From the NCBI GenBank assembly GCA_031291995.1, contig JARLHZ010000016.1, positions 1 to 54,148 of the forward strand: 54,148 nt of DNA, given 5' to 3'. The translations under genes and the position numbers were made by a program. The DNA comes from Candidatus Doudnabacteria bacterium (lineage in GTDB: Bacteria > Patescibacteriota > Doudnabacteria > UBA920). The notes under the pieces were generated by a model, which did no database searches, was not told where the DNA came from, and saw only the letters and a list, made by a program, of their open reading frames with translations. Shown here in pieces: positions 5,801-43,819 of the stretch (within the stretch, counting starts at the first letter, position 1; every line of letters begins with the position of its first letter).

Positions 5801-6790
5801 CTAATAATTCAAAAACTTTCCATGCGCTTCCTTGGCCTTGGTTTTATCTAGACCCAAGTAATAACGGCAGGTGGTCTCGAGCCGGTCATGGCCGAGGATT
5901 TCTTTTACGTGAGAAATTGGGCAGCCGTTAAATAAAAGGTTGGTGGCCATGGTATGCCGCAGAATGTGCGGCGTTATTTTTTTAGTAATGCCAGCTTTCC
6001 TGGCCTGCCAGCTGAAGGCCTTACTAATGTCGGACTTGGTTAAGCGCGTGCGGTTTTGGGTTATAAACAGCGCCGGGTTATTGTCCTTGCGATGCTCAAG
6101 ATAATGCTTAATCCAGTCCAAGGATCTCTGGTTAAAAAATACCGTGCGCTCCTTGCTGCCCTTGCCGATAATTTTGGCCTCGGCCTTTTCAAAGTCTATG
6201 CTGTCGCGGTTTAAAGACAGGGCTTCGGAAATTCTCATACCGGAGCCGAGCAGAACCTCGACCAGCGTCCGGAACCTTAAGCCGTTCATCCTGACTCCGG
6301 GCTTACGCAAATGGCCGGTGTGCTTTTTTTCTATGCTGATGCTGTTTACGAACTGCTCAATCTCCTCGTTGGTTAAAAACAGCACGTCGCGGCGCCTCCG
6401 CTTGGGCGACTTTATTCTTTTGCTATCAAGCACCGGCAGATCTAAAAAGTCCTTGCAGTATTTTAAAAAACTTTTAGTGGCAAACACAATGGAATAAATC
6501 CTGGCCTCGCTGGCCCCTCTGGCCAGGACTTTTTGTTTGACCTCGGTTATGTGGATGAGGTTTAGTTGGTTTATGGGCAAATCGCCGATATACCGGATGA
6601 CCCAATGCAGGCAGTCCCCGTATTTATCCACTGTGCCGGGAGAGAACGACAGCTCAAACTGGCCGTATTTTAAAAACCCCGGAATCAGCTCGCTGAATTT
6701 CGGGCAGGTTGGCGCCTGTGGGCTGGCCAAAATTGGCACGGCCAAAGTTCCTACATTTGTATTTGATTCTAAGGCAATCCCCGGATACAT
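5801..6790 (-). CDS. Tyrosine recombinase Int B
   Basis: A 329-residue integrase of the XerC/D type. The N-terminal SAM-like DNA-binding domain is at about residues 45-140. The catalytic domain has Arg in GMRISEA, Lys in GKGSKER, HILRH, GHD and the nucleophile Tyr in CRYYLG. I chose the ATG at 6790 (MYPGIALES) because it aligns with the start of Int A and follows the conserved GCGAGGCTTTTT. An in-frame ATG at 6835 lies inside the leader. Int B is strongly similar to Int A along its whole length and lies next to a copy of the 16S 3' end. It probably integrates a second, downstream element at that site. Confidence 0.92.
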   Translation of the reverse strand: MYPGIALESNTNVGTLAVPILASPQAPTCPKFSELIPGFLKYGQFELSFSPGTVDKYGDCLHWVIRYIGDLPINQLNLIHITEVKQKVLARGASEARIYSIVFATKSFLKYCKDFLDLPVLDSKRIKSPKRRRRDVLFLTNEEIEQFVNSISIEKKHTGHLRKPGVRMNGLRFRTLVEVLLGSGMRISEALSLNRDSIDFEKAEAKIIGKGSKERTVFFNQRSLDWIKHYLEHRKDNNPALFITQNRTRLTKSDISKAFSWQARKAGITKKITPHILRHTMATNLLFNGCPISHVKEILGHDRLETTCRYYLGLDKTKAKEAHGKFLNY

Positions 6791-6827
6791 AAAAAGCCTC
6801 GCGTCAATTGATGACACAAGGCTCTTT
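6791..6827 (-). terminator. Terminator/SD-sequestering hairpin abutting the Int B start
   Basis: Read on the minus strand, AGCCT...GTCA pairs with TGAC...AGGCT and is followed by TTTTT and then directly by the ATG. The 3' arm contains GCGAGG, the only candidate ribosome-binding site of Int B. The same layout, with compensatory base changes, precedes Int A. Confidence 0.75.
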
Positions 6828-7052
6828 AATTGCAATTTCGTTAAGTTCCCTTAACGGCTAAATAGTGACCCCGAGCATTAAAGGCGCTCAGGCTCCGCAT
6901 AATCTTGCGATTATATGGAGAAGAATTACCGTACAAAACCGTTTACGTTAACGTCGTTTCTTAGAGTCAGGATTGCGTTAAAAATCGAAATAATTAACGA
7001 CGACCAACAGAATGCCGCAAATAGTAAGATCGAAATCCATACTTTTGCGGAA
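6828..7052 (-). promoter_or_regulatory. Structured leader of Int B, homologous to the Int A leader
   Basis: On the minus strand this holds, in order: a block CATTCCG (7048-7054), GGTTTTGTAC (6931-6940), a hairpin CTCCATATAATC/GATTATGCGGAG, a hairpin CTGAGC/GCTCGG, and a hairpin CGTTAAG/CTTAACG. The terminator hairpin follows. The first two blocks are complementary to the 16S leader. The hairpins are preserved in the Int A leader with different but still pairing bases. I see no promoter. Confidence 0.7.
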
Positions 7053-7072
7053 TGTTCCTTAGAAAGGAGGTG
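7053..7072. repeat. Attachment-site core, element-distal copy
   Basis: TGTTCCTTAGAAAGGAGGTG is identical to 40670-40689, where it is the 3' end of 16S rRNA (anti-Shine-Dalgarno region). Here it stands alone, with no rRNA on its right side. This is the pattern of a duplicated attachment core at the far end of an integrated element. Confidence 0.85.
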
Positions 7073-9351: not shown

Positions 9352-10317
9352 TTAATCGTATTTTAAATATTTTTCGTGCGCTTCTTTTAGTTTCTTTTTG
9401 TCGGTGCCAAGATAATATTTCGCCGTTGTGGAGATCGTGGAATGTCCGAGGATATCTTTGATAAACATAATGTCGGCGCCTTGGTGGAGCATTAGAGTGG
9501 CCATGCTGTGGCGCAAAATATGGGGCGTAACTTTTTTCTTGATACCGGCTTTTGCAGCGTAACGCCTGAATTCTTTGCCCAAATCGTGCCGTGTGAGCCG
9601 ATTGGAAGTACCAAAGGCTACAAACAATGCAGGCTCGGAATCGGTACGCTGTTTGAGATATTTATTAATCCATTCAATGGTACGCGGTTTTAGATATACC
9701 GTCCGCTCCTTATTGCCCTTACCAATAATATTTACTTCCAAATTCTTTAAATCCAAATCTTGGCGGTTCAAAGAAAGAGCTTCACCGATACGCATACCGG
9801 TGGCCAAAAGCAATTCCATAAGAGCCCGCATCCGCAAACCGTAAATGCTGTCCACATTAATGCTGTTGAGCAGTTGCTGGATTTCTTCCTTGTCTAAAAA
9901 TGTAACCTGACGTTTTGGTAACTTCATAGGCTTAATGTCCTCAATATTAATAATTGTAGCAATTTTTTGAATTTCCTGGCAGTAAGCCAAAAATTTTCTT
10001 AAGGCGAAAAGAATACTATTCGTCCTTGACTCCCCGGCTCCGCGTTCCTGAATCCGCTGCTTTAGCAGGGTTATATCTTCCAGACATAGGATAGACGGAC
10101 TCAACACTTTCGGTAAATGCTTCATTACCCACTTTAGAGACTCTCCATATTTTTGCACCGTCTGCGGTGACAATTTAAGATCGTAAGCTGCATAGCCTAT
10201 AAACTTCGGGGTCAACTCTAAAAAAGTCTTGTCTGGCGACTTACGCGGGGCTGTGAGTTCAGTAGCGCCAAAAGGCCTGTTCAAAAGCACAGAGCTGTCT
10301 AAGATGGCTGTATCCAT
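9352..10317 (-). CDS. Tyrosine recombinase Int C
   Basis: A 321-residue XerC/D-like recombinase. It has Arg in GMRIGEA, Lys in GKGNKER, HILRHSMA, GHS and Tyr in AKYYLG. It is clearly related to Int A and Int B but more diverged, and lacks their leader and 16S-end flank. It lies 30 bases downstream of the primase-helicase gene in the same orientation, so it is likely expressed with replication genes. A role in resolving element multimers, or as a relic of an older inserted element, are both possible. Confidence 0.9.
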   Translation of the reverse strand: MDTAILDSSVLLNRPFGATELTAPRKSPDKTFLELTPKFIGYAAYDLKLSPQTVQKYGESLKWVMKHLPKVLSPSILCLEDITLLKQRIQERGAGESRTNSILFALRKFLAYCQEIQKIATIINIEDIKPMKLPKRQVTFLDKEEIQQLLNSINVDSIYGLRMRALMELLLATGMRIGEALSLNRQDLDLKNLEVNIIGKGNKERTVYLKPRTIEWINKYLKQRTDSEPALFVAFGTSNRLTRHDLGKEFRRYAAKAGIKKKVTPHILRHSMATLMLHQGADIMFIKDILGHSTISTTAKYYLGTDKKKLKEAHEKYLKYD

Positions 10318-20677: not shown

Positions 20678-23600
20678 TTATGGGAACATACTGTCGGTGG
20701 TCAGGGCTTGATCTCTGGATTGTACTGTAGTGCTTTCAGGCAAGTTCACGTCCGATGTATTGGCTTTGACAACCAAACTAAACGCCAAACCATAGGAGTT
20801 AAATACATCCAAAGATGGGAAGCCGTGGCGCTGGCCATTGTTAATCCACCAAACTGTTTTGTTGCCCAAAACCAAAGCGCCGTCCGGATGCGGGTCGCTG
20901 CTGGAACTAATAAACGGTCCTGCTTGGTAATCCGCTAAGTTTATTTTTCTGGCTTGGCTGAATTTGTAGCCTAAGTCTTTAAAAACTTTGGCTGACACAA
21001 AGCCGCGTTTAATTCCGCCCGCGCCAATGAGGTAGATGGTGCCTTTGCCGGAAGTATCCAAAACCAGCATACCGTCCATAGCGCGCATAACGGGGCCTTC
21101 CGGAATATCCTTAATTGCGTCGCTGGTGATGGCGTCGGAAAACTTAAAACCGTAACTTAAAAATTCCGCCGCCGAAACAAACGGCCGCTTTTGTCCTTTG
21201 CTTATCAGATAGATGACAGAACCGTCCAAGACCAGCGTACCGTCTTTAATGGCAGCCGTGCCTAAAATTTGCCCTTGTGGTGCTATGGTAACAGGTGTAG
21301 TTGTGGGCGTTGTGGTTGCCGCAGGTGTTGGCGCAACATAATAATAGCCACCCCCGCCTCCACCACCCGAACTTACGGGAGCTGGGATAGCAGTCTGTAT
21401 ATAGGTAATGAACGTAGTGAAGTGCTTGGTCCAGACTATAAGATTGCCCTTGCCATCGTCGTTTATCTTGCAGTTACCACCATCGGGAAACGCCGTATCG
21501 CCATTGATAGTCGTATTGCTTGCGTTGGAGTCACAGATATCCGTTATCTCATGGTAAACGCCAGCTTGCGACCAACCCACAGAACTCCCTGTCTGCTCCA
21601 GGAACGTCAGTTCTGCTGGCACACTCAACTCCATTGGGATCTCGCCGAGGCCGATTTCAATTGCCGATGTGCCCGACACGGTATCTCCGGCATCCGGCGG
21701 AGGGGGTGTAAATATATTAGTAAATGTCGGGAGGTTAAAAATACCGTTCCAGACCGGCGTCGCCGCAGTAATAACCTCCCCTGCCGGAATAGAGACCGTC
21801 ATAGCAGCCCCCGGCGGCGTTTCTACGGTCGCATTAATTTCACCTGGAAGCGTAGCCGCATCTCCTCCTGTAACAAGGGAGCTAAGGTCAAGAGTTGGGT
21901 TAGTTACGCCGGGTAGGATCGTGATAGGCAACGCACCCGTGTCGGTACTATTAATTGTCATGGAAGGAGCTGCGGAAGACAGCTGATGGGCACAATCGTG
22001 CGTCACAAATGGAAGAAAAACGCAGGGTTGTGGTTGTGTCCCCAGACTATATTGTGTGGGAAGCAATGGCAGTGCTGACTCGAGAGATAATTGAAAACCA
22101 TATTTGGTGGGGATGTCAATATATTTGTAAACGAGCGATGATTGTAATCCCGATCCTATGAAGGGATTCTCAAGAACGGTGTTCGTCGTGTTGTATATGC
22201 TATCTTGATACCAAACTTCTGGCCAGAAATGCACTTCATTTAGATAAGGGAAGGGGGTTGCCCCGCCACCAATACCGTCACAGTTCGGTATATTATCGGC
22301 GAAAGATGTGCACGGATCTAATGCCGTAACATCAAAATTATAAGCGTATTGCAGAGTAAGAGCAGCATTGTCAAGAATGGGGCGTCCGTTCGTGTCAACG
22401 TATTGCTCCGCCCACCACGTTCCTGGACTATTGGGGTCTGGATCCTCGCCATACGCCAACTGTTCTTCGTTCGGATCATAGGCACTGAGAAACGTAAGAT
22501 GAAGGTTGGTACTTGGGGAATTCTCTCGAATAGACTCTGCGGCCTTTTGAATCACGTTGGATCCGGCGCTATGCGCGATAAAATGTATAGTCGCCCACTT
22601 GGTTTGGGATAAATCAATTTGGCTTCCTTTGTTCAGCACTTGGATGCCCGTATTTGACCAAGGTCCTGGTAATAAAGCATGACCTAAACTCGTACCATCG
22701 GGTCCTGCATTGGCGACCGCAAGATTCGGAGCTGTAGCTGGGTTTGAACCAGTATCTGCACCATTGTGCCAGTCAAACGCGCAAACATCCCAACTGGCCA
22801 ACTCCGCTGGAGGTATTCTGTTAGCGATTGATCGTGCCATAGTCTGAACCCATCCAGTCAAAGTAGTGGCGTTATCGTTCCATCCATGTGTTATCACAAC
22901 TATGTTTATTGCATTCGTTGAATACTGGGCGCTACAGTCCAATGTATTTACCGTGGGAACATACGTGAATTGATCTGCGTCGTTCTTGGCACTCGTACCT
23001 TCGGGAGATACAACTGTAATATCAACGGTACCGGCACTACTAGTTGCCGGAGAAGTCGCGGTTATTGATGTATCGGAGGTGGTGGCAAAGCTGGTCGCGG
23101 CGGTATTTCCAAAGTATATGGCAGTCGCATCGTTGAAACCGCTGCCGGTTATTGTTACAGAAGTACCACCGGCAGTGTCGCCGGTAAGCGGTGAAATAGA
23201 AGAGACCACGGGTGCCGATGTGACAGGCGCGGTAATGCTTAACGGAACCAGATTGCTTTCCGACCCACCTACCCCATCATTGACGCTAAGAATGTATGAG
23301 CCGAGAGTTGTTACCGACGGAACGGTAAAACTAACCTCGGTCGACGAGATCAGGTTAACATCAACGTCGCCACAGCCTGGCGCATTCGAACTGGCAAGAC
23401 TTATACATGCAACGCTGTTTTGATCGAAGTTCGTGCCGTAAACATAGACAGTGCCGCCTTCGGCTGCTGTCGTCGGATTGATATGCGAGATCGTAGGAGC
23501 TAGTGCTGATGCTGACGTCACGGTGATTGTCTCCGTGCCAATAACCCTTGAGCCATCGTTAGCCGTCGCCGTCACGGTCACGGTTCCCGGACTTCCTGCC

Positions 23601-25087
23601 GTAAGTAAACCGGATAAAAAATCAATGGTCGCTGTCCCACTGCCGTTGGTTACGGACCAGGTAACGGCTGGCTTGCTGGCATTCTGCGGCAACACGGTCG
23701 CGCTCATTTGCAGACTGCCGCCGCTGGCAACGGTGGTGGTTCCATTGGCGGCTGATACTGTGATGCCAGTTACCGGCGTGTCGGTTAAAGTGCCAATGGT
23801 TAAGCTGATCCCGGTAGAAGTTAACGGCGAGCTTGGAGAAAGCCAGGACGATGTTGCGCCTTGGAAAGCATTGGCCGGGGCCACTAGATCGGCGCGCACT
23901 GCGGAAACCGCGCCGGTATATAACGCGCCATCGCCTTTAACGGCTAAAGTTACAGTTGTCCCGGCCAGTATAGTAAAAAGGTTGGCGGTAGAAAAAGAAT
24001 AAGTAAAGGTGTTGTGATTGCCATCAGCTTGGGCGTTGAGCGAAGGGCCGACTTGGCTGCCATTTGCGTAGAGGCTCAAGTTGTTAAAACCGTCTACGCT
24101 GGCCGGAGTGCCGGTATAGTTTAACACAACCTGCAAGGACTGGACTTTCATATCCTCGCTATAGCCGGTCATGATCCATTGTCCCAGTGTTACCCCGGAC
24201 TGGTTACCAGGGAACGGACTAGCTGTAAAAGTTGGATCTTGTTGCAGGGTGATTGAACCGGGATTAATATAAATTATTCCGGCAGCGTTTGGAACTCCGG
24301 AAGCAGTAATATTTACAGAAGCCTGCGGGTCGGTAATTGTTAAGTCAGACGCCTGCTGAATTGAAAATTGGACGTGAGTACCCGCGCCTATACTCTCTGG
24401 AATATCCGCTCGCACCTCAATTGCATGTGAGCCAGTTGTCAAACTGATAGGAGCTGACGTAAAATCAAACACCGCATAGTTAGAGCCGCTGATTGCTGTA
24501 ACTGTCGCGGTCTTACCGGCATCACTGCCATCAACTAACATTTTAATGTTTGTCAGGGCATTCGCGGGCGCGGTGTCGGTCATTAAAAAATTGGCTGTTT
24601 TTAACACAACCGCTTCGTTGGCAACCTGAAATGTGCTTAACCAGATGCTATAACCTAATGTGCCGGCGTTTACGTTTCTCGTTCCCAGATTGCTGCCAAT
24701 GCTGACTGTGGCTTGGCTGGCCACCGGCCCGGTCAGAATATAATATCTTGCTGTTGTTGTTCCGTCCTCGGCCGTTACCAATAAAAAATTGTCATTTTCT
24801 ACCGGATCCGCAATGTTAGAATCGTCCCAAGTTTGTCCGACTTGGCCTTTGCTTAACGCAGCCTTAAAGTCAACCTTAGATGTTCCAACAGGAATACCAG
24901 TAATAGAAAAGATGTTTCCCGGTCCTCCTGTAACCGGGCCTATTAAATAAGTTGAAGAGGTTATTGTAGTATCGCTTGAATTTGCCCTGACGGTCGCCAC
25001 AAAGCCGGGTGCGATTGGCAAAACTATCATTGCTGCAGACAAAGCAATGTGGATGAATCTTTTAAAATATTTGGTGCGTGTTTTCAT
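20678..25087 (-). CDS. Giant secreted surface protein with Ig-like, TIG and lipase-like hydrolase domains
   Basis: A 1469-residue protein from the ATG at 25087 (a TTG 15 bases earlier is less likely). Signal peptide at about 1-35. Beta-rich domains occupy about 40-440. A bacterial Ig-like (Big_2) domain lies at about 440-525, and two IPT/TIG domains at about 530-710. An alpha/beta hydrolase follows at about 725-1000, with VVITHGWNDN and the nucleophile elbow IAHSAGSN (Ser near 841). A Gly/Tyr linker leads to three C-terminal repeats of the form DGxLVL...YLI..G.KR.FVS...F...GY, common in Patescibacterial surface proteins. Probably surface-bound and acting on lipids or esters of a host or neighbour; the substrate is unknown. 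Confidence 0.85.
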   Translation of the reverse strand: MKTRTKYFKRFIHIALSAAMIVLPIAPGFVATVRANSSDTTITSSTYLIGPVTGGPGNIFSITGIPVGTSKVDFKAALSKGQVGQTWDDSNIADPVENDNFLLVTAEDGTTTARYYILTGPVASQATVSIGSNLGTRNVNAGTLGYSIWLSTFQVANEAVVLKTANFLMTDTAPANALTNIKMLVDGSDAGKTATVTAISGSNYAVFDFTSAPISLTTGSHAIEVRADIPESIGAGTHVQFSIQQASDLTITDPQASVNITASGVPNAAGIIYINPGSITLQQDPTFTASPFPGNQSGVTLGQWIMTGYSEDMKVQSLQVVLNYTGTPASVDGFNNLSLYANGSQVGPSLNAQADGNHNTFTYSFSTANLFTILAGTTVTLAVKGDGALYTGAVSAVRADLVAPANAFQGATSSWLSPSSPLTSTGISLTIGTLTDTPVTGITVSAANGTTTVASGGSLQMSATVLPQNASKPAVTWSVTNGSGTATIDFLSGLLTAGSPGTVTVTATANDGSRVIGTETITVTSASALAPTISHINPTTAAEGGTVYVYGTNFDQNSVACISLASSNAPGCGDVDVNLISSTEVSFTVPSVTTLGSYILSVNDGVGGSESNLVPLSITAPVTSAPVVSSISPLTGDTAGGTSVTITGSGFNDATAIYFGNTAATSFATTSDTSITATSPATSSAGTVDITVVSPEGTSAKNDADQFTYVPTVNTLDCSAQYSTNAINIVVITHGWNDNATTLTGWVQTMARSIANRIPPAELASWDVCAFDWHNGADTGSNPATAPNLAVANAGPDGTSLGHALLPGPWSNTGIQVLNKGSQIDLSQTKWATIHFIAHSAGSNVIQKAAESIRENSPSTNLHLTFLSAYDPNEEQLAYGEDPDPNSPGTWWAEQYVDTNGRPILDNAALTLQYAYNFDVTALDPCTSFADNIPNCDGIGGGATPFPYLNEVHFWPEVWYQDSIYNTTNTVLENPFIGSGLQSSLVYKYIDIPTKYGFQLSLESALPLLPTQYSLGTQPQPCVFLPFVTHDCAHQLSSAAPSMTINSTDTGALPITILPGVTNPTLDLSSLVTGGDAATLPGEINATVETPPGAAMTVSIPAGEVITAATPVWNGIFNLPTFTNIFTPPPPDAGDTVSGTSAIEIGLGEIPMELSVPAELTFLEQTGSSVGWSQAGVYHEITDICDSNASNTTINGDTAFPDGGNCKINDDGKGNLIVWTKHFTTFITYIQTAIPAPVSSGGGGGGGYYYVAPTPAATTTPTTTPVTIAPQGQILGTAAIKDGTLVLDGSVIYLISKGQKRPFVSAAEFLSYGFKFSDAITSDAIKDIPEGPVMRAMDGMLVLDTSGKGTIYLIGAGGIKRGFVSAKVFKDLGYKFSQARKINLADYQAGPFISSSSDPHPDGALVLGNKTVWWINNGQRHGFPSLDVFNSYGLAFSLVVKANTSDVNLPESTTVQSRDQALTTDSMFP

Positions 25088-25104
25088 ATTATTATTTAGC
25101 AACT

Positions 25105-26373: not shown

Positions 26374-26691
26374 TTAGAAAGGCCTGCCTTCATCGTCAGG
26401 TTCTTTATGGATGGGGGTTGTGGCGAGTTCTTCCATATTGGGATAGTCTAGCATTTTAGTTTTCGTTACAGGCTGTTTGTAATTTTTTATTTCTTCTTCG
26501 TCCGGCATTTCAAGCCAAGGATTATAGTCACCGCACGAGCATGGATCGTCACTGCCGCATAAATCACAGGGCGGATCAAATTCGCCGCAAGCCCGGCCAC
26601 AACCCTGGCACATTATTATAGTTTCCGGGCCATCATCCCCGGATCTCTGGCCGTATTTAACCTTGGCTCTGCAACATTTAGAAATAGGCAT
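26374..26691 (-). CDS. Cysteine-rich zinc-binding protein
   Basis: A 105-residue protein from the ATG at 26691 (MPISKCCRAK). Cysteine pairs CC, CQGC, C, CDLC and CSC within residues 6-60 could bind two or three zinc ions. The tail is acidic and disordered. An in-frame TTG 18 bases upstream is possible. It is first after a structured leader with a strong -10 element. Likely nucleic-acid or protein binding; no family assigned. Confidence 0.65.
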   Translation of the reverse strand: MPISKCCRAKVKYGQRSGDDGPETIIMCQGCGRACGEFDPPCDLCGSDDPCSCGDYNPWLEMPDEEEIKNYKQPVTKTKMLDYPNMEELATTPIHKEPDDEGRPF

Positions 26692-26709
26692 AAATAATTT
26701 ATTAGACAA

Positions 26710-26878
26710 TCAAAAAGGGCCACCCGCTTGCCCCACCTAACCTTTCGGTTAGGGACCTCTATAAAGGCTAAGACAAGACAGGTGACCGTCTTCGCTTTAT
26801 AGAGGATTTATGCCATGCCCGTAACTTACGCGGCGGGTTTAGGCAAACTTATTCAGTTTTACTGCTTATATTATAGCA
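26710..26878 (-). ncRNA. Structured leader RNA or small RNA with extended -10 promoter
   Basis: The minus-strand extended -10 TGCTATAAT (26870-26878) would start RNA near 26862. Downstream are three hairpins: GCC..CCCG/CGGG..GGC (26812-26844), an 11-bp perfect stem CCTCTATAAAG/CTTTATAGAGG (26756-26805) with an inner AAGAC/GTCTT, and CCTAACC/GGTTAGG (26736-26753) with a 4-base loop. A weak GGGC/GCCC plus T5 precedes the cysteine-rich gene. No known RNA class is recognised. Confidence 0.6.
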
Positions 26879-39447: not shown

Positions 39448-40416
39448 TCAATAATTCAAAAACTGCTTGTGGGCTTCCTTGGCTTTGGACTTATCTACCC
39501 CCAAGTAATATTTACAAGTTGTCTCGAGCCGGTCGTGGCCAAGTATTTCCTTGACGTGATTAATAGGACAGCCATTGAAAAGTAAATGCGTTGCCATGGT
39601 ATGACGCAAGGTGTGCGGTGTAAGGTGTTTGGTAATGCCGGACTTTTTAACATAGCGTTTAAATAGGCCGCTAACGTCTTCCCTGCTAAAGCGGGTGCCA
39701 CGGCTGGTTATAAATATCGGTTCCAGGGTGTCGCTTCTTTGTTCCAAATAATATTTTACCCAATCCAAAGACCGCTGGTTAAAAAATACCGTCCGCTGTT
39801 TGTTTCCTTTGCCGATTATTTTAGCTTCGGCCTTTTCGTAATCTATCTGGCCGCGATCAAGCGACAAGGCTTCGGAAATTCTCATACCGGTGCCAAGCAG
39901 GACTTCCACCAGCGTCCTAAACCTTAAGCCGTTGATGCGCACGGCTTTCTTACGAATCTTGCCCTGCCACTTCCTGTCTATTTTTATAGAATTTACAAAT
40001 TGCTCTATTTCTTCTTTGGTTAAAAAAATGACTTCCCGCCGGTGGTGCTTAGGCGGCTTGATTCTTGTCTGGTCCATTACCGGCAATTCCAGGACTTCGG
40101 CGCAAAACTTAAGGATGCCTTTTAAGGCAAAGACAATTTGCGAAACCCTGGACTCGCCGCAACCGCGCATAAACATTTTTTGTTTAACCGCGATAACGTT
40201 TTCCAGTTTTATGTCGGTTACCGGGATTGTTCCGATGTCCCGATGGGTATAGAGCAGGTTCTCTTTATACTTGGCAATAGTCTGCGGCGCGAGGGAAAGT
40301 TCAAACTGGGCATACTGCAAAAAGCGGGGAATAAGCTCTAAAATAGTCGGCTTAAATATAGGGGGAACGGGTGTGCCTACTATCGTGGTTGTTTCTAAGG
40401 ATGTTTCCTGCAACAT
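39448..40416 (-). CDS. Tyrosine recombinase Int A (element integrase)
   Basis: A 322-residue recombinase nearly collinear with Int B. Its Arg (GMRISEA), Lys (GKGNKQR), HTLRH, GHD and Tyr (CKYYLG) are all present, so it should be active. The ATG at 40416 directly follows GCGAGGCTTTTT, the 3' arm and T-run of a terminator hairpin. It lies about 250 bases downstream of the 16S 3' end, which is the attachment core. It most likely catalyses integration and excision of the 33.6-kb element. Expression probably depends on read-through from rRNA transcription, since no promoter is visible in the leader. Confidence 0.94.
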   Translation of the reverse strand: MLQETSLETTTIVGTPVPPIFKPTILELIPRFLQYAQFELSLAPQTIAKYKENLLYTHRDIGTIPVTDIKLENVIAVKQKMFMRGCGESRVSQIVFALKGILKFCAEVLELPVMDQTRIKPPKHHRREVIFLTKEEIEQFVNSIKIDRKWQGKIRKKAVRINGLRFRTLVEVLLGTGMRISEALSLDRGQIDYEKAEAKIIGKGNKQRTVFFNQRSLDWVKYYLEQRSDTLEPIFITSRGTRFSREDVSGLFKRYVKKSGITKHLTPHTLRHTMATHLLFNGCPINHVKEILGHDRLETTCKYYLGVDKSKAKEAHKQFLNY

Positions 40417-40453
40417 AAAAAGCCTCGCGCCAGTTAATGGTACGAGACTTTTT
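40417..40453 (-). terminator. Terminator/SD-sequestering hairpin abutting the Int A start
   Basis: On the minus strand AGTCTCG..CCA pairs with TGG..CGAGGCT and is followed by T5 and the start codon. GAGG in the 3' arm is the only ribosome site. Base changes relative to the Int B copy keep the pairing. Confidence 0.78.
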
Positions 40454-40669
40454 ATTTCAATTTCTGTTAAAAACTTTAACAGCTAAATAGTGACCCCGAG
40501 CATTATGGCTGCTCAGGCTCCCCTTATTCTTGCGAATAATTGGAGTAGAATGCCGTACAAAACCGTTTACATCAAATCGTAGAGTATGTGCACCTTCTAT
40601 CGAAATAGAAGATGACGACCACGGAATGTACCTCAACAGTCCCTTCGAAAAGGTCCAGGAGGCATATTT
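40454..40669 (-). promoter_or_regulatory. 16S trailer and structured leader of Int A
   Basis: Minus-strand order: CATTCCG (40622-40628), a hairpin CTTCTAT/ATAGAAG, GGTTTTGTAC (40555-40564), then hairpins CTCC.ATTATTC/GAATAA..GGAG, CTGAGC/GCTCGG and CTGTTAAA/TTTAACAG. The first and third elements are complementary to the 16S leader in nested order. The last three match the Int B leader in structure with compensatory changes. Confidence 0.72.
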
Positions 40670-40689
40670 TGTTCCTTAGAAAGGAGGTG
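40670..40689. repeat. Attachment-site core at the 16S 3' end
   Basis: TGTTCCTTAGAAAGGAGGTG, identical to 7053-7072. On the minus strand it contains CACCTCCTTTCT, the anti-Shine-Dalgarno end of 16S rRNA. The crossover must lie within these 20 bases if the rRNA is to stay intact. Confidence 0.88.
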
Positions 40690-41136
40690 ATCCATCGACA
40701 GCTTCCGCTACCGATGCCTTGTTACGACTTAGCCCCAGTTACGAGCTTCGGCTTAGGCCACCTTACGGTGAACTTTAGCCGCTTCCCGCTTCCATGGCTT
40801 GACGGGCGGTGTGTACAAAACCTGAGAACGTATTCACCGTGACGAGGCTGATTCACGGTTACTAGCGATTCCGGCTTCATGAGGGCGAGTTGCAGCCCTC
40901 AATCCGAACTGGGGGTAGTATTGATAGGATTTGCTCCGGATTACTCCTTGGCGTCCCTTTATTCTACCCATTGTAGCACGTGTGTGGCCCAAGTCGTAAG
41001 AGCCACGCTGATTTGACGTCATCCCCACCTTCCTCCAGCTTAAACGCTGGCAGTTCTGTGAGACACTTGTAACTCACCGTAGGGGTTGCGCTCGTTTTCA
41101 CACTTAAGTGAACACCTCACGGCACGAGCTGACGAC

Positions 41137-42036
41137 CATATTTGTCCACTATTCCTAGTGGTACGGACTATACCATATCCGTTTCATCAATTTTGATGAA
41201 GTGCGGATCCGACCGTGTTATAGCGTTATAAGATATTTGATATAAGTGTCGCTATCTAACCTTGGTGGTCAAACCAAGATTAAGTCTCTACGGGATTCAA
41301 ACGCTAATTTTTGCAACTTTAGTGAATGTTGAATGCAATTTCCAACAAACTTTTTACTTTCACTCCTGGAAACATATAGGACATAAGCACTTGATGTTCT
41401 ATAATAATAAACTTTACACAACTGTAACCCCAAGCTTTCAAGAATTTTTTTATCTTGACCAGCTTCTTGTTTGGTTGTATAACTGATTCTTAAATCTCTT
41501 TTTAAATCCTTGCCTATGTTCCGTCCCCGTCGAATCTTCCGGCCATATAGCACCACGCAACTTCTTTACTTATAAATTGCTTTATTGGCGATTGTTTGGC
41601 TCGAACAAATTCTCGAAGCAAGCCCCTGCTATTTACATACAAATGGTATGCAATATGTTTGGCTTTTTTAGAATACAAGATGGAAATAGATTTTACGCCA
41701 AAATTTAAATAATTTTTTGGCGTAGAGTCGCTAATATAAACCTTTAGACGAAGCCTCTCGTCGGTATAGGCTTGTTTTAGGAACTCAAGAAATTTTTCAA
41801 TCAGCTGTGGGTTTATGTTGCTCAATCCTATGCTGCTAGTCCTGTGGTAGCCATCGGCACACCAAAGACCCAGCACATATGCATGAGCTTTAGAGGAATA
41901 AAAGTCACAAAAATTAGCGCTTGAATTTCCCACGGTATTACCCATTCTTTAATTATATCATTAATTAAATATTGGGGCTTCACCGTTTTGAGTCGGTATT
42001 TTTCATCCCAAATTACTTTGGGAGCGGTCGATTTTC
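41137..42036 (-). mobile_element. Group I intron in 16S rRNA
   Basis: A 900-base insertion at E. coli position about 1060/1061. The 5' exon ends CGGTT, the intron begins GAAAATC-GACCG, and GACCG pairs with CGGTT to form P1 with the classic U-G at the splice site. The intron ends in G before GTCGTCAGC. Near the 3' end GGTATAGTCC resembles the conserved S element, and GAGACT could be the partner strand of P7. It holds a LAGLIDADG gene. Self-splicing is inferred. Confidence 0.85.
41269..41945 (-). pseudogene. LAGLIDADG homing endonuclease, frameshifted
   Basis: The first frame (41945 to 41514, 143 residues) has both motifs: AYVLGLWCADG near residue 22 and CYMAGRFDGDG near residue 132. It stops one codon after the second. 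The rest of the C-terminal domain (NIGKDLKRDLRISYTTKQEA...) continues in another frame to 41269. A one-base change just after the second motif restores a protein of about 225 residues, the usual two-motif length. As read, the enzyme lacks its second DNA-binding half and should be inactive. Confidence 0.85.
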
Positions 42037-42128
42037 AACCGTGCAGCACCTGTGTACCACCCTCGAAGGCTACCCTATCTCTAGAGTATGCAGGTACATG
42101 TCAAGACTTGGTAAGGTTCCTCGCTTAC

Positions 42129-42162
<34 letters not shown>

Positions 42163-42166
42163 AGGT

Positions 42167-42217
<51 letters not shown>

Positions 42218-42995
42218 TGATTTAACGCGTTAGCTATGGCACTAACGAGGGTCGATACTCGCTAGCGCCTAATCATCATCGTTTACAGCGTGGACTACTG
42301 GGGTATCTAATCCCATTCGCTCCCCACGCTTTCGTCCTAGCAGTGTCAGGTGGCACCCAGAAGCCTGCCTACGCTATTGGTGTTCCAAGCGATATCAACG
42401 CATTTCACTACTACACCGCTTGTTCCAGCTTCCTCTTTGCCCCTCTAGTTTTACAGTTTCAAAAGACAGTCTCCCAGTTAAGCTGAGAGATTTCACTTCT
42501 GACTTGTAAAACCACCTATCGGTACGCTTTACGCCCAATGATTCCGGATAACGCTTGAGGTCTCTGTATTACCGCTGCTGCTGGCACAGAGTTAGCAACC
42601 TCTTATTCTCTCGGTACGCTCAAAATATTGTTCCCGAGCAAAAGGACTTTACAACCCGAAGGCCTTCATCGTCCACGCGGCGTCGCTGGATCAGGCTTTC
42701 GCCCATTGTCCAAAATTCCAAACTGCTGCCTCCCGTAGGAGTCTGGACCGTGTCGCAGTTCCAGTGTGGGGGTTTCCCCTCTCGGGGCCCCTAACCGTCA
42801 TAGCCTTGGTAAGCCATTACCTTACCAACTAGCTGATGGTGCCCAGGCCTCACTTTAAGCGTCTTGCGACTTTGACCTTGCGGTCACATGGAGTATTATC
42901 CAATCTTTCGACTGGTTATGCTCCACTTAAAGAAAGTTCCTAGGTATTACTCACCCGTTCGCCATGCCCCTTGCGGAGCATTCGACTTGCATGTC

Positions 42996-43039
<44 letters not shown>

Positions 43040-43046
43040 TATTAGA

Positions 43047-43819
43047 ACTAAATATAAGTCTTGAATTGTCCCGCAGAGCGGGACAGAGTTATAAGTAGTG
43101 GTTCGATCTGTCTAAAAGACAAACTTTACCCTGTACCGGAGTCTCGCGAAGCGAGATGACTGGTATAGGGCTGGCTTAATTGATTTGGGAAAGGCTCAAT
43201 TAATAAAACCTATAATATATCATTGAACTCTCCCCCTCCGCATAAAGCTTCGGGGGACTGCAGCTATAAAATTAATTATAGTTTGCAGAAATTGAATTGA
43301 CGCAAACATTGCATTCCAACTGGGTTTAAATCAGTCGGAACACGATGGTTTTGTACACAATTATAACCGGGCGGTTATAATTGTTTTCTAATCACTATTC
43401 AGCTGTTAAGGTACGCCGCGGATCTAAACGCGGATAGCTACGCGGATCTGACGCTGAACCTTCAGGGTCATCTGAGCAACTATCTAAGCTTGATCTCGCT
43501 CTCCCCCTTAGGGGGAGATGTCGCCATCAGATGGCGACAGAGAGGGTGCAGTTATTAATGTGTATTTCCTGGGGACAAGAAGTGTAAATATGCTCTCCGC
43601 TTTCGTCCGCCAATGGCGGACTTCGGCGGATTGACCCTCTAATATGTAGTTATATGAGGGTCAAAAAAAACACATACGCATTTGGCGTATTATGTTCAGC
43701 TCCCAGACTTTTTGGGATCCCCAGTAATCAGCGATTTTTCGCTTACACTAGAGCAAAATTGAACCTAAGGTTTATGCCGTTTTTAAACGTTAAGATTTAA
43801 ACTTATTAAATCCTTAGCT
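43047..43819 (-). promoter_or_regulatory. Long 16S leader with hairpins and processing-stem halves
   Basis: About 770 transcribed bases. GTACAAAACC (43347-43356) and TGGAATG (43312-43318), read on the minus strand, pair with trailer blocks beyond the 16S 3' end. Many small palindromes are present, e.g. GTCCCGC/GCGGGAC (about 43070-43086), CTCCCCCTTAGGGGGAG, TGTCGCC/GGCGACA and TCCGCC/GGCGGA. A GCGGATCT-like word recurs near 43420-43450. No protein gene or tRNA seen. Confidence 0.65.

Follow-up and report, generated by a model that had tools for sequence, protein, structure and literature searches.

Integrative elements and prophages are known from the 3′ ends of tRNA and tmRNA genes. The element analyzed here (element A) resembles those systems in combining a tyrosine recombinase with a core located at the 3′ terminus of a conserved RNA gene, in restoring this end, and in forming tandem arrays. 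Unlike them, it targets the anti-Shine-Dalgarno sequence of the 16S rRNA gene and would bring a processing strand and a terminator replacing those of its target. Variable DNA has also been described next to other rRNA genes: the HVR2 island of SAR11, a 48 kb surface-polysaccharide region situated between the 23S and 5S genes, has an integrase gene, and its spread was ascribed to homologous recombination at rRNA genes, with no attachment core mentioned in the available part of the source (PMC2217521). As described in the same part, HVR2 is, like element A, a variable region lying against the sole rRNA gene with an integrase gene, but its site is the 23S/5S interval and not the 16S 3′ end (PMC2217521). 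In CPR bacteria, 16S and 23S genes are unlinked, as is the case here, where the 16S gene stands apart from the 23S gene (PMC8172020); since this separation is also found in genomes without the element, the element is not needed to explain it. Finally, the region that precedes the recombinase (trailer A) recalls transcription attenuators and riboswitches, in that a structured 5′ region ends in a terminator immediately upstream of a start codon. In contrast to these, its structure would be part of the 16S precursor and also occurs where the recombinase gene is missing downstream.

We analyzed a window of 54,148 nt, which corresponds to positions 1 to 54,148 of the forward strand of contig JARLHZ010000016.1 (Candidatus Doudnabacteria bacterium, GCA_031291995.1). 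All the genomes compared, this one included, are MAG-type assemblies. We conclude that an integrative element of 33.6 kb has very probably inserted at the 16S 3′ end, with positions 40417-40669 representing its left end. The 16S rRNA gene (40682-43041, reverse strand) was identified with Rfam and its exon joints were defined from matches to intron-less relatives. The 23S gene is located on a different contig (C7), and the 16S gene is therefore a unit of its own. The 16S gene presents an intron of ~900 nt (about 41137-42035, reverse strand) with a LAGLIDADG-like ORF (41514-41945). In another genome (G037), we observed a match to a group II intron (L096:2163-2243) and an ORF that resembles LAGLIDADG proteins by eye (L159:7129-7671), both near where the 16S gene ends.

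The sequence CACCTCCTTTCTAAGGAACA, which comprises the 16S 3′ end with the anti-Shine-Dalgarno and a few bases beyond, is found in exactly two copies in the window, both on the reverse strand: at the end of the 16S gene (40670-40689; putative attL core) and, as a displaced 16S end with AAA ahead of it in place of GAT, before a second trailer (7053-7072; putative attR core). No such 20-nt repeat is expected by chance (0 in 100 shuffles), even when allowing three mismatches. The sequence-only reading of this locus, which centered on the region upstream of the recombinase, mentioned neither this exact repeat nor integration at the 16S 3′ end. Each copy of the core is followed by a trailer and then by a recombinase, all on the reverse strand. 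The first core is followed by trailer A (40417-40669) and Int A (39448-40416), a tyrosine recombinase of 322 aa identified by Pfam (PF00589; 4.7e-40) and by alignments, whose catalytic residues are assigned by motif (R179, K203, H268, R271, H294, and Y303/304). The second core is followed by trailer B (6791-7052), defined by its homology to trailer A and its stem pairing, with a processing strand at 6848-6867 and a terminator abutting the start codon of Int B (5801-6790; PF00589 and alignments; 329 aa from the ATG that follows the terminator). Int B probably represents the left end of an older element (element B) inserted in the same site. The contig stops short of the far end of element B, whose right end falls outside the window together with the native trailer. 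Neither an excised circle nor an element-free strain was found for this genome.

Element A (7073-40669; ~33.6 kb) is delimited by these direct repeats, one of which lies in the host gene. Recombinases are found near both of its ends: Int A, a tyrosine recombinase with its catalytic residues, and Int C (9352-10317, reverse strand; PF00589), near the right end and 44% identical to Int A. The element also encodes restriction-modification functions (a type IIG restriction enzyme and a DNA methylase), a PLD/SNF2 helicase, a primase, RadC, a NERD protein, and a zeta toxin. No relaxase or type IV secretion genes were found among the element A proteins scanned with Pfam, which represent part of the ORFs. 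Integration of the tRNA or tmRNA type was rejected, as the window contains neither gene and the core is the 16S end itself. Two other features of the element are a LOOT RNA (RF03000, 62.1 bits; 26717-26845, reverse strand), just ahead of a small ORF (26374-26709), and a 1474-aa protein with TIG and Big_2 (Ig-like) domains (20678-25102, reverse strand), whose GC-content is above that of its surroundings and which is possibly a surface protein. We detected no relatives of the recombinase in IMG/VR, and the recombinases among the best matches in plasmid and phage collections present about 30% identity or less. The 53 matches to AAACACCTCCTTTCTA in IMG/VR were also discarded: most look like reversed ribosome-binding sites and none continues with the NGGA of the core.

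Trailer A is a strongly structured region. Its predicted folding energy is −88 kcal/mol, relative to a mean of −62.9 kcal/mol for shuffled sequences (z = −5.28), and none of 200 shuffles folded as well. Trailers A and B share 81% identity across 161 nt. Across ten trailers, the GGTCGTC hairpin and its neighbors present nine pairs with changes on both sides that keep the pairing, and the terminator stem covaries as well. The sequence-only reading was thus right that the region contains multiple hairpins whose pairing is conserved, and the covariation that it asked for among homologues is present. A search of DNA from 191 relatives found trailer matches mostly directly 3′ of 16S genes. Five of these genomes (G015, G007, G002, G014, and G001) harbor a similar trailer with its own intrinsic terminator and without a recombinase behind it, and these trailers have in common the hairpins, a strand complementary to the 16S 5′ leader, and an intrinsic terminator. 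Because recombinase-free relatives possess a like trailer after a stand-alone 16S gene, the supposed leader of the recombinase appears to be the 3′ trailer of pre-16S rRNA, here carried by a mobile element. We also noted that trailer A looks chimeric, with the first ~120 nt resembling the native trailers of the genus and the remainder resembling trailer B; this could possibly reflect recombination between element and host trailers.

The long-range pairing of the trailer agrees with this interpretation. The CACTATTTAGCTGTTAAAG segment (40473-40492, reverse strand) would constitute the 3′ strand of a pre-16S processing stem, whose 5′ strand lies in the 16S leader (43393-43412, reverse strand). 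The two strands pair at 19 of 20 positions, a score that is weak evidence alone given that shuffles reach 15 on average and up to 19. The same stem is found in five relatives (17-18 of 20 positions paired), in most of them about 1.7 kb from the 16S end, whereas a displaced trailer with no 16S gene ahead of it (in G003) pairs only at background level. The constant place and sequence of these strands are stronger evidence for a processing stem than the pairing score. This segment had been proposed as a local hairpin, the "TTAA stem", which is not seen in the trailers of most relatives. Considering this stem, the recombinase-free trailers, and the separate 16S unit, the hairpins initially attributed to a leader are best viewed as features of the pre-16S trailer.

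As the sequence-only reading had noticed, the last hairpin of trailer A (40417-40455, reverse strand; −20.9 kcal/mol) is a terminator that runs up to the ATG of Int A and encloses the GAGG motif, which lies 6 nt upstream of this codon within the 3′ arm. In five copies of the terminator stem, 95% of the cells are paired and three pairs present two-sided changes; this covariation score exceeds those of 500 out of 500 shuffles and of all slid versions. A terminator directly precedes the ATG of the integrase in six of the seven members of its clade (Int A, Int B, G016, and L011-L013), with 0 to about 6 nt from the T run to the start codon. Most of these proteins share the motif LE[S/C/T] a few residues past the ATG, which indicates that this codon is likely the true start. 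The terminator and the ATG are also retained in relics found in G005 and G006. Because the terminator adjoins the integrase start in six of seven members, read-through from rRNA transcription would be the likeliest source of integrase mRNA, although we consider the odds of this to be about even. As previously proposed, no promoter was found between the 16S gene and Int A, based on a simple scan of this strand for sigma-70-like promoters. The promoters of Patescibacteria are poorly known, however, and it is conceivable, if somewhat doubtful, that integration at the 16S end is real but that Int A relies on its own promoter, with the terminator only shielding the gene from rRNA transcription. The strength of the terminators (−19 to −27 kcal/mol) would stop most read-through, which counts against this source, and a low level of integrase fits the usual habit of integrated elements, which keep their integrase low. 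Conversely, a start codon placed right after the hairpin leaves no space for a promoter between the two, and a promoter placed before the hairpin would face the same terminator.

The sequence-only reading had gone further and viewed the region as a dedicated RNA attenuator, possibly sensing a ligand, that evolved to control the recombinase through rRNA read-through. We consider this improbable, even though the structure and its covariation are real, the scan revealed no promoter, and the terminator adjoins the ATG and buries GAGG in the Patescibacteria copies (GAGG is found 6-7 nt ahead of the ATG in all five). The same trailer follows the 16S gene of recombinase-free relatives, so the structure is not specific to the gene, and one of the proposed stems corresponds to the 16S processing strand. 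The L011 and L012 terminators lack GAGG, indicating that burial of the ribosome site is not general. Moreover, no competing fold or candidate antiterminator was apparent, short of a systematic search, and the Rfam scan matched no known leader RNA, riboswitch-type family, or other family at 40417-40669. Of the original proposal, rRNA read-through itself stays plausible, considering the lack of a promoter in the scan and the terminator abutting the ATG; the dedicated attenuator or ligand sensor is not supported.

The interpretation of trailer A as the end of an integrated element can be compared to other Patescibacteria. A 16S end without a preceding 16S gene was found in four of the 49 genomes of the class. 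Six of the eight displaced copies begin with AAACACC, relative to GATCACC in the 16S gene, which is as expected if AAACACC were a fixed half-site on the side of the element. In G003, a Fic gene comes after the displaced core and trailer, with a remnant similar to Int C ahead; this gene also follows an intact 16S-trailer in G037 and G032. This synteny and the recombinase-free 16S-trailers of the genus provide examples of the empty site in relatives. G037 also presents a second core, a trailer, and an Int remnant 4.4 kb past its 16S gene. The clearest independent case was found in a distant member of Patescibacteria from another family of the phylum (G311): a single contig contains the 16S gene, a trailer with a terminator, a stretch of 23.8 kb with two recombinases found by homology, a repeated 16S end, a second trailer, and three tRNAs. 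Both trailers can base-pair at one and the same site in the 16S leader, with 18 of 18 positions paired for the displaced trailer and 16 of 18 for the left one, as expected if the displaced trailer were native and the left one carried by the element. G034 was left out of the full cases, its displaced core having no evident trailer. The genes that follow the 16S are not syntenic in the genus, and the native neighbor in this genome is therefore unusable for comparison.

The recombinases linked to 16S ends form a clade with a support of 98/98 (Int A, Int B, L010 of G016, Int1 of G311, L011, L012, and L013), which spans three phyla and whose seven members are all tied to the 16S 3′ end. No core was found within 800 bp upstream of the integrase in 18 loci outside the clade (L014-L034), a few of which are near contig ends. 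The family looks rare: strong matches were found in three of the 362 genomes of the phylum, and searches of two other phyla yielded no copies beyond the starting genomes. In G002 and G004, a hairpin likewise precedes the ATG of recombinases, but with neither a 16S core nor an Rfam match. These loci (L061, G002:C69; L060, G004:C9) belong to the wider clade and start right after a hairpin (CAAAACCTC..GAGGTTTTG).

Outside Patescibacteria, L011-L013 originate from three MAGs labelled Deltaproteobacteria or Syntrophobacteraceae (Myxococcota and Thermodesulfobacteriota in the tree set). Their integrases are 49-52% identical to Int A and are preceded by AAACACCTCCTTTC[T/C]AGGGAG, a trailer-like stretch, and a terminator. 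These copies could represent displaced 16S ends or, because the MAGs contain no 16S end besides the integrase-linked copy, the attP of a free form. A second recombinase belonging to its own clade is located near the 16S-linked integrase in all three MAGs (L169:7248-8273, L012:10293-11258, and L171:7709-8764). Although trailers A and B are homologous, as are Int A and Int B, and no empty site is seen in this genome, it is very improbable that the second copy arose when the 16S end, its trailer, and the recombinase gene were duplicated long ago without site-specific integration at the 16S end, since the repeat begins sharply at the 16S end, the AAACACC junction recurs in six unrelated copies from three phyla, the displaced trailers of G003 and G311 have other flanks (a Fic gene and tRNAs, respectively), and recombinases lie near the ends in each case.

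Integration at the 16S end is strongly supported by the sequence, and our results also support a model in which the element would supply a working trailer and terminator. Under this model, a tyrosine recombinase (Int A or Int C) would insert the element at the 16S end while keeping the mature 3′ end intact. The carried trailer would then take over 16S 3′ processing and termination, as its pairing and homology suggest, and the older trailer would be displaced to the far end of the element. With less certainty, the integrase would be produced from a minor fraction of rRNA transcripts, those extending past the terminator. The broadest version of this model, a cross-phylum family that combines the anti-Shine-Dalgarno as a near-universal landing site, a stand-in trailer, and an integrase produced by read-through only, such that mobility tracks ribosome synthesis, remains tentative.

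We found no tyrosine recombinase at the 16S 3′ end in the open-access literature, a coverage that leaves out most subscription papers and preprints, and its novelty is therefore provisional. The 16S 3′ end is among the most conserved sequences of bacteria, and an integrase using it could, in principle, operate in hosts that are very distantly related. In this genome, the mobile element appears to have inserted at the 16S 3′ end with ribosome production unbroken. If true, this would show that DNA can enter an rRNA gene that is essential and apparently present as a single copy in a reduced genome, with its function retained, loss of function being avoided by carrying a working copy of the signals for rRNA processing and termination. 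This also suggests a natural landing site for the genetics of Patescibacteria, for which few tools exist.
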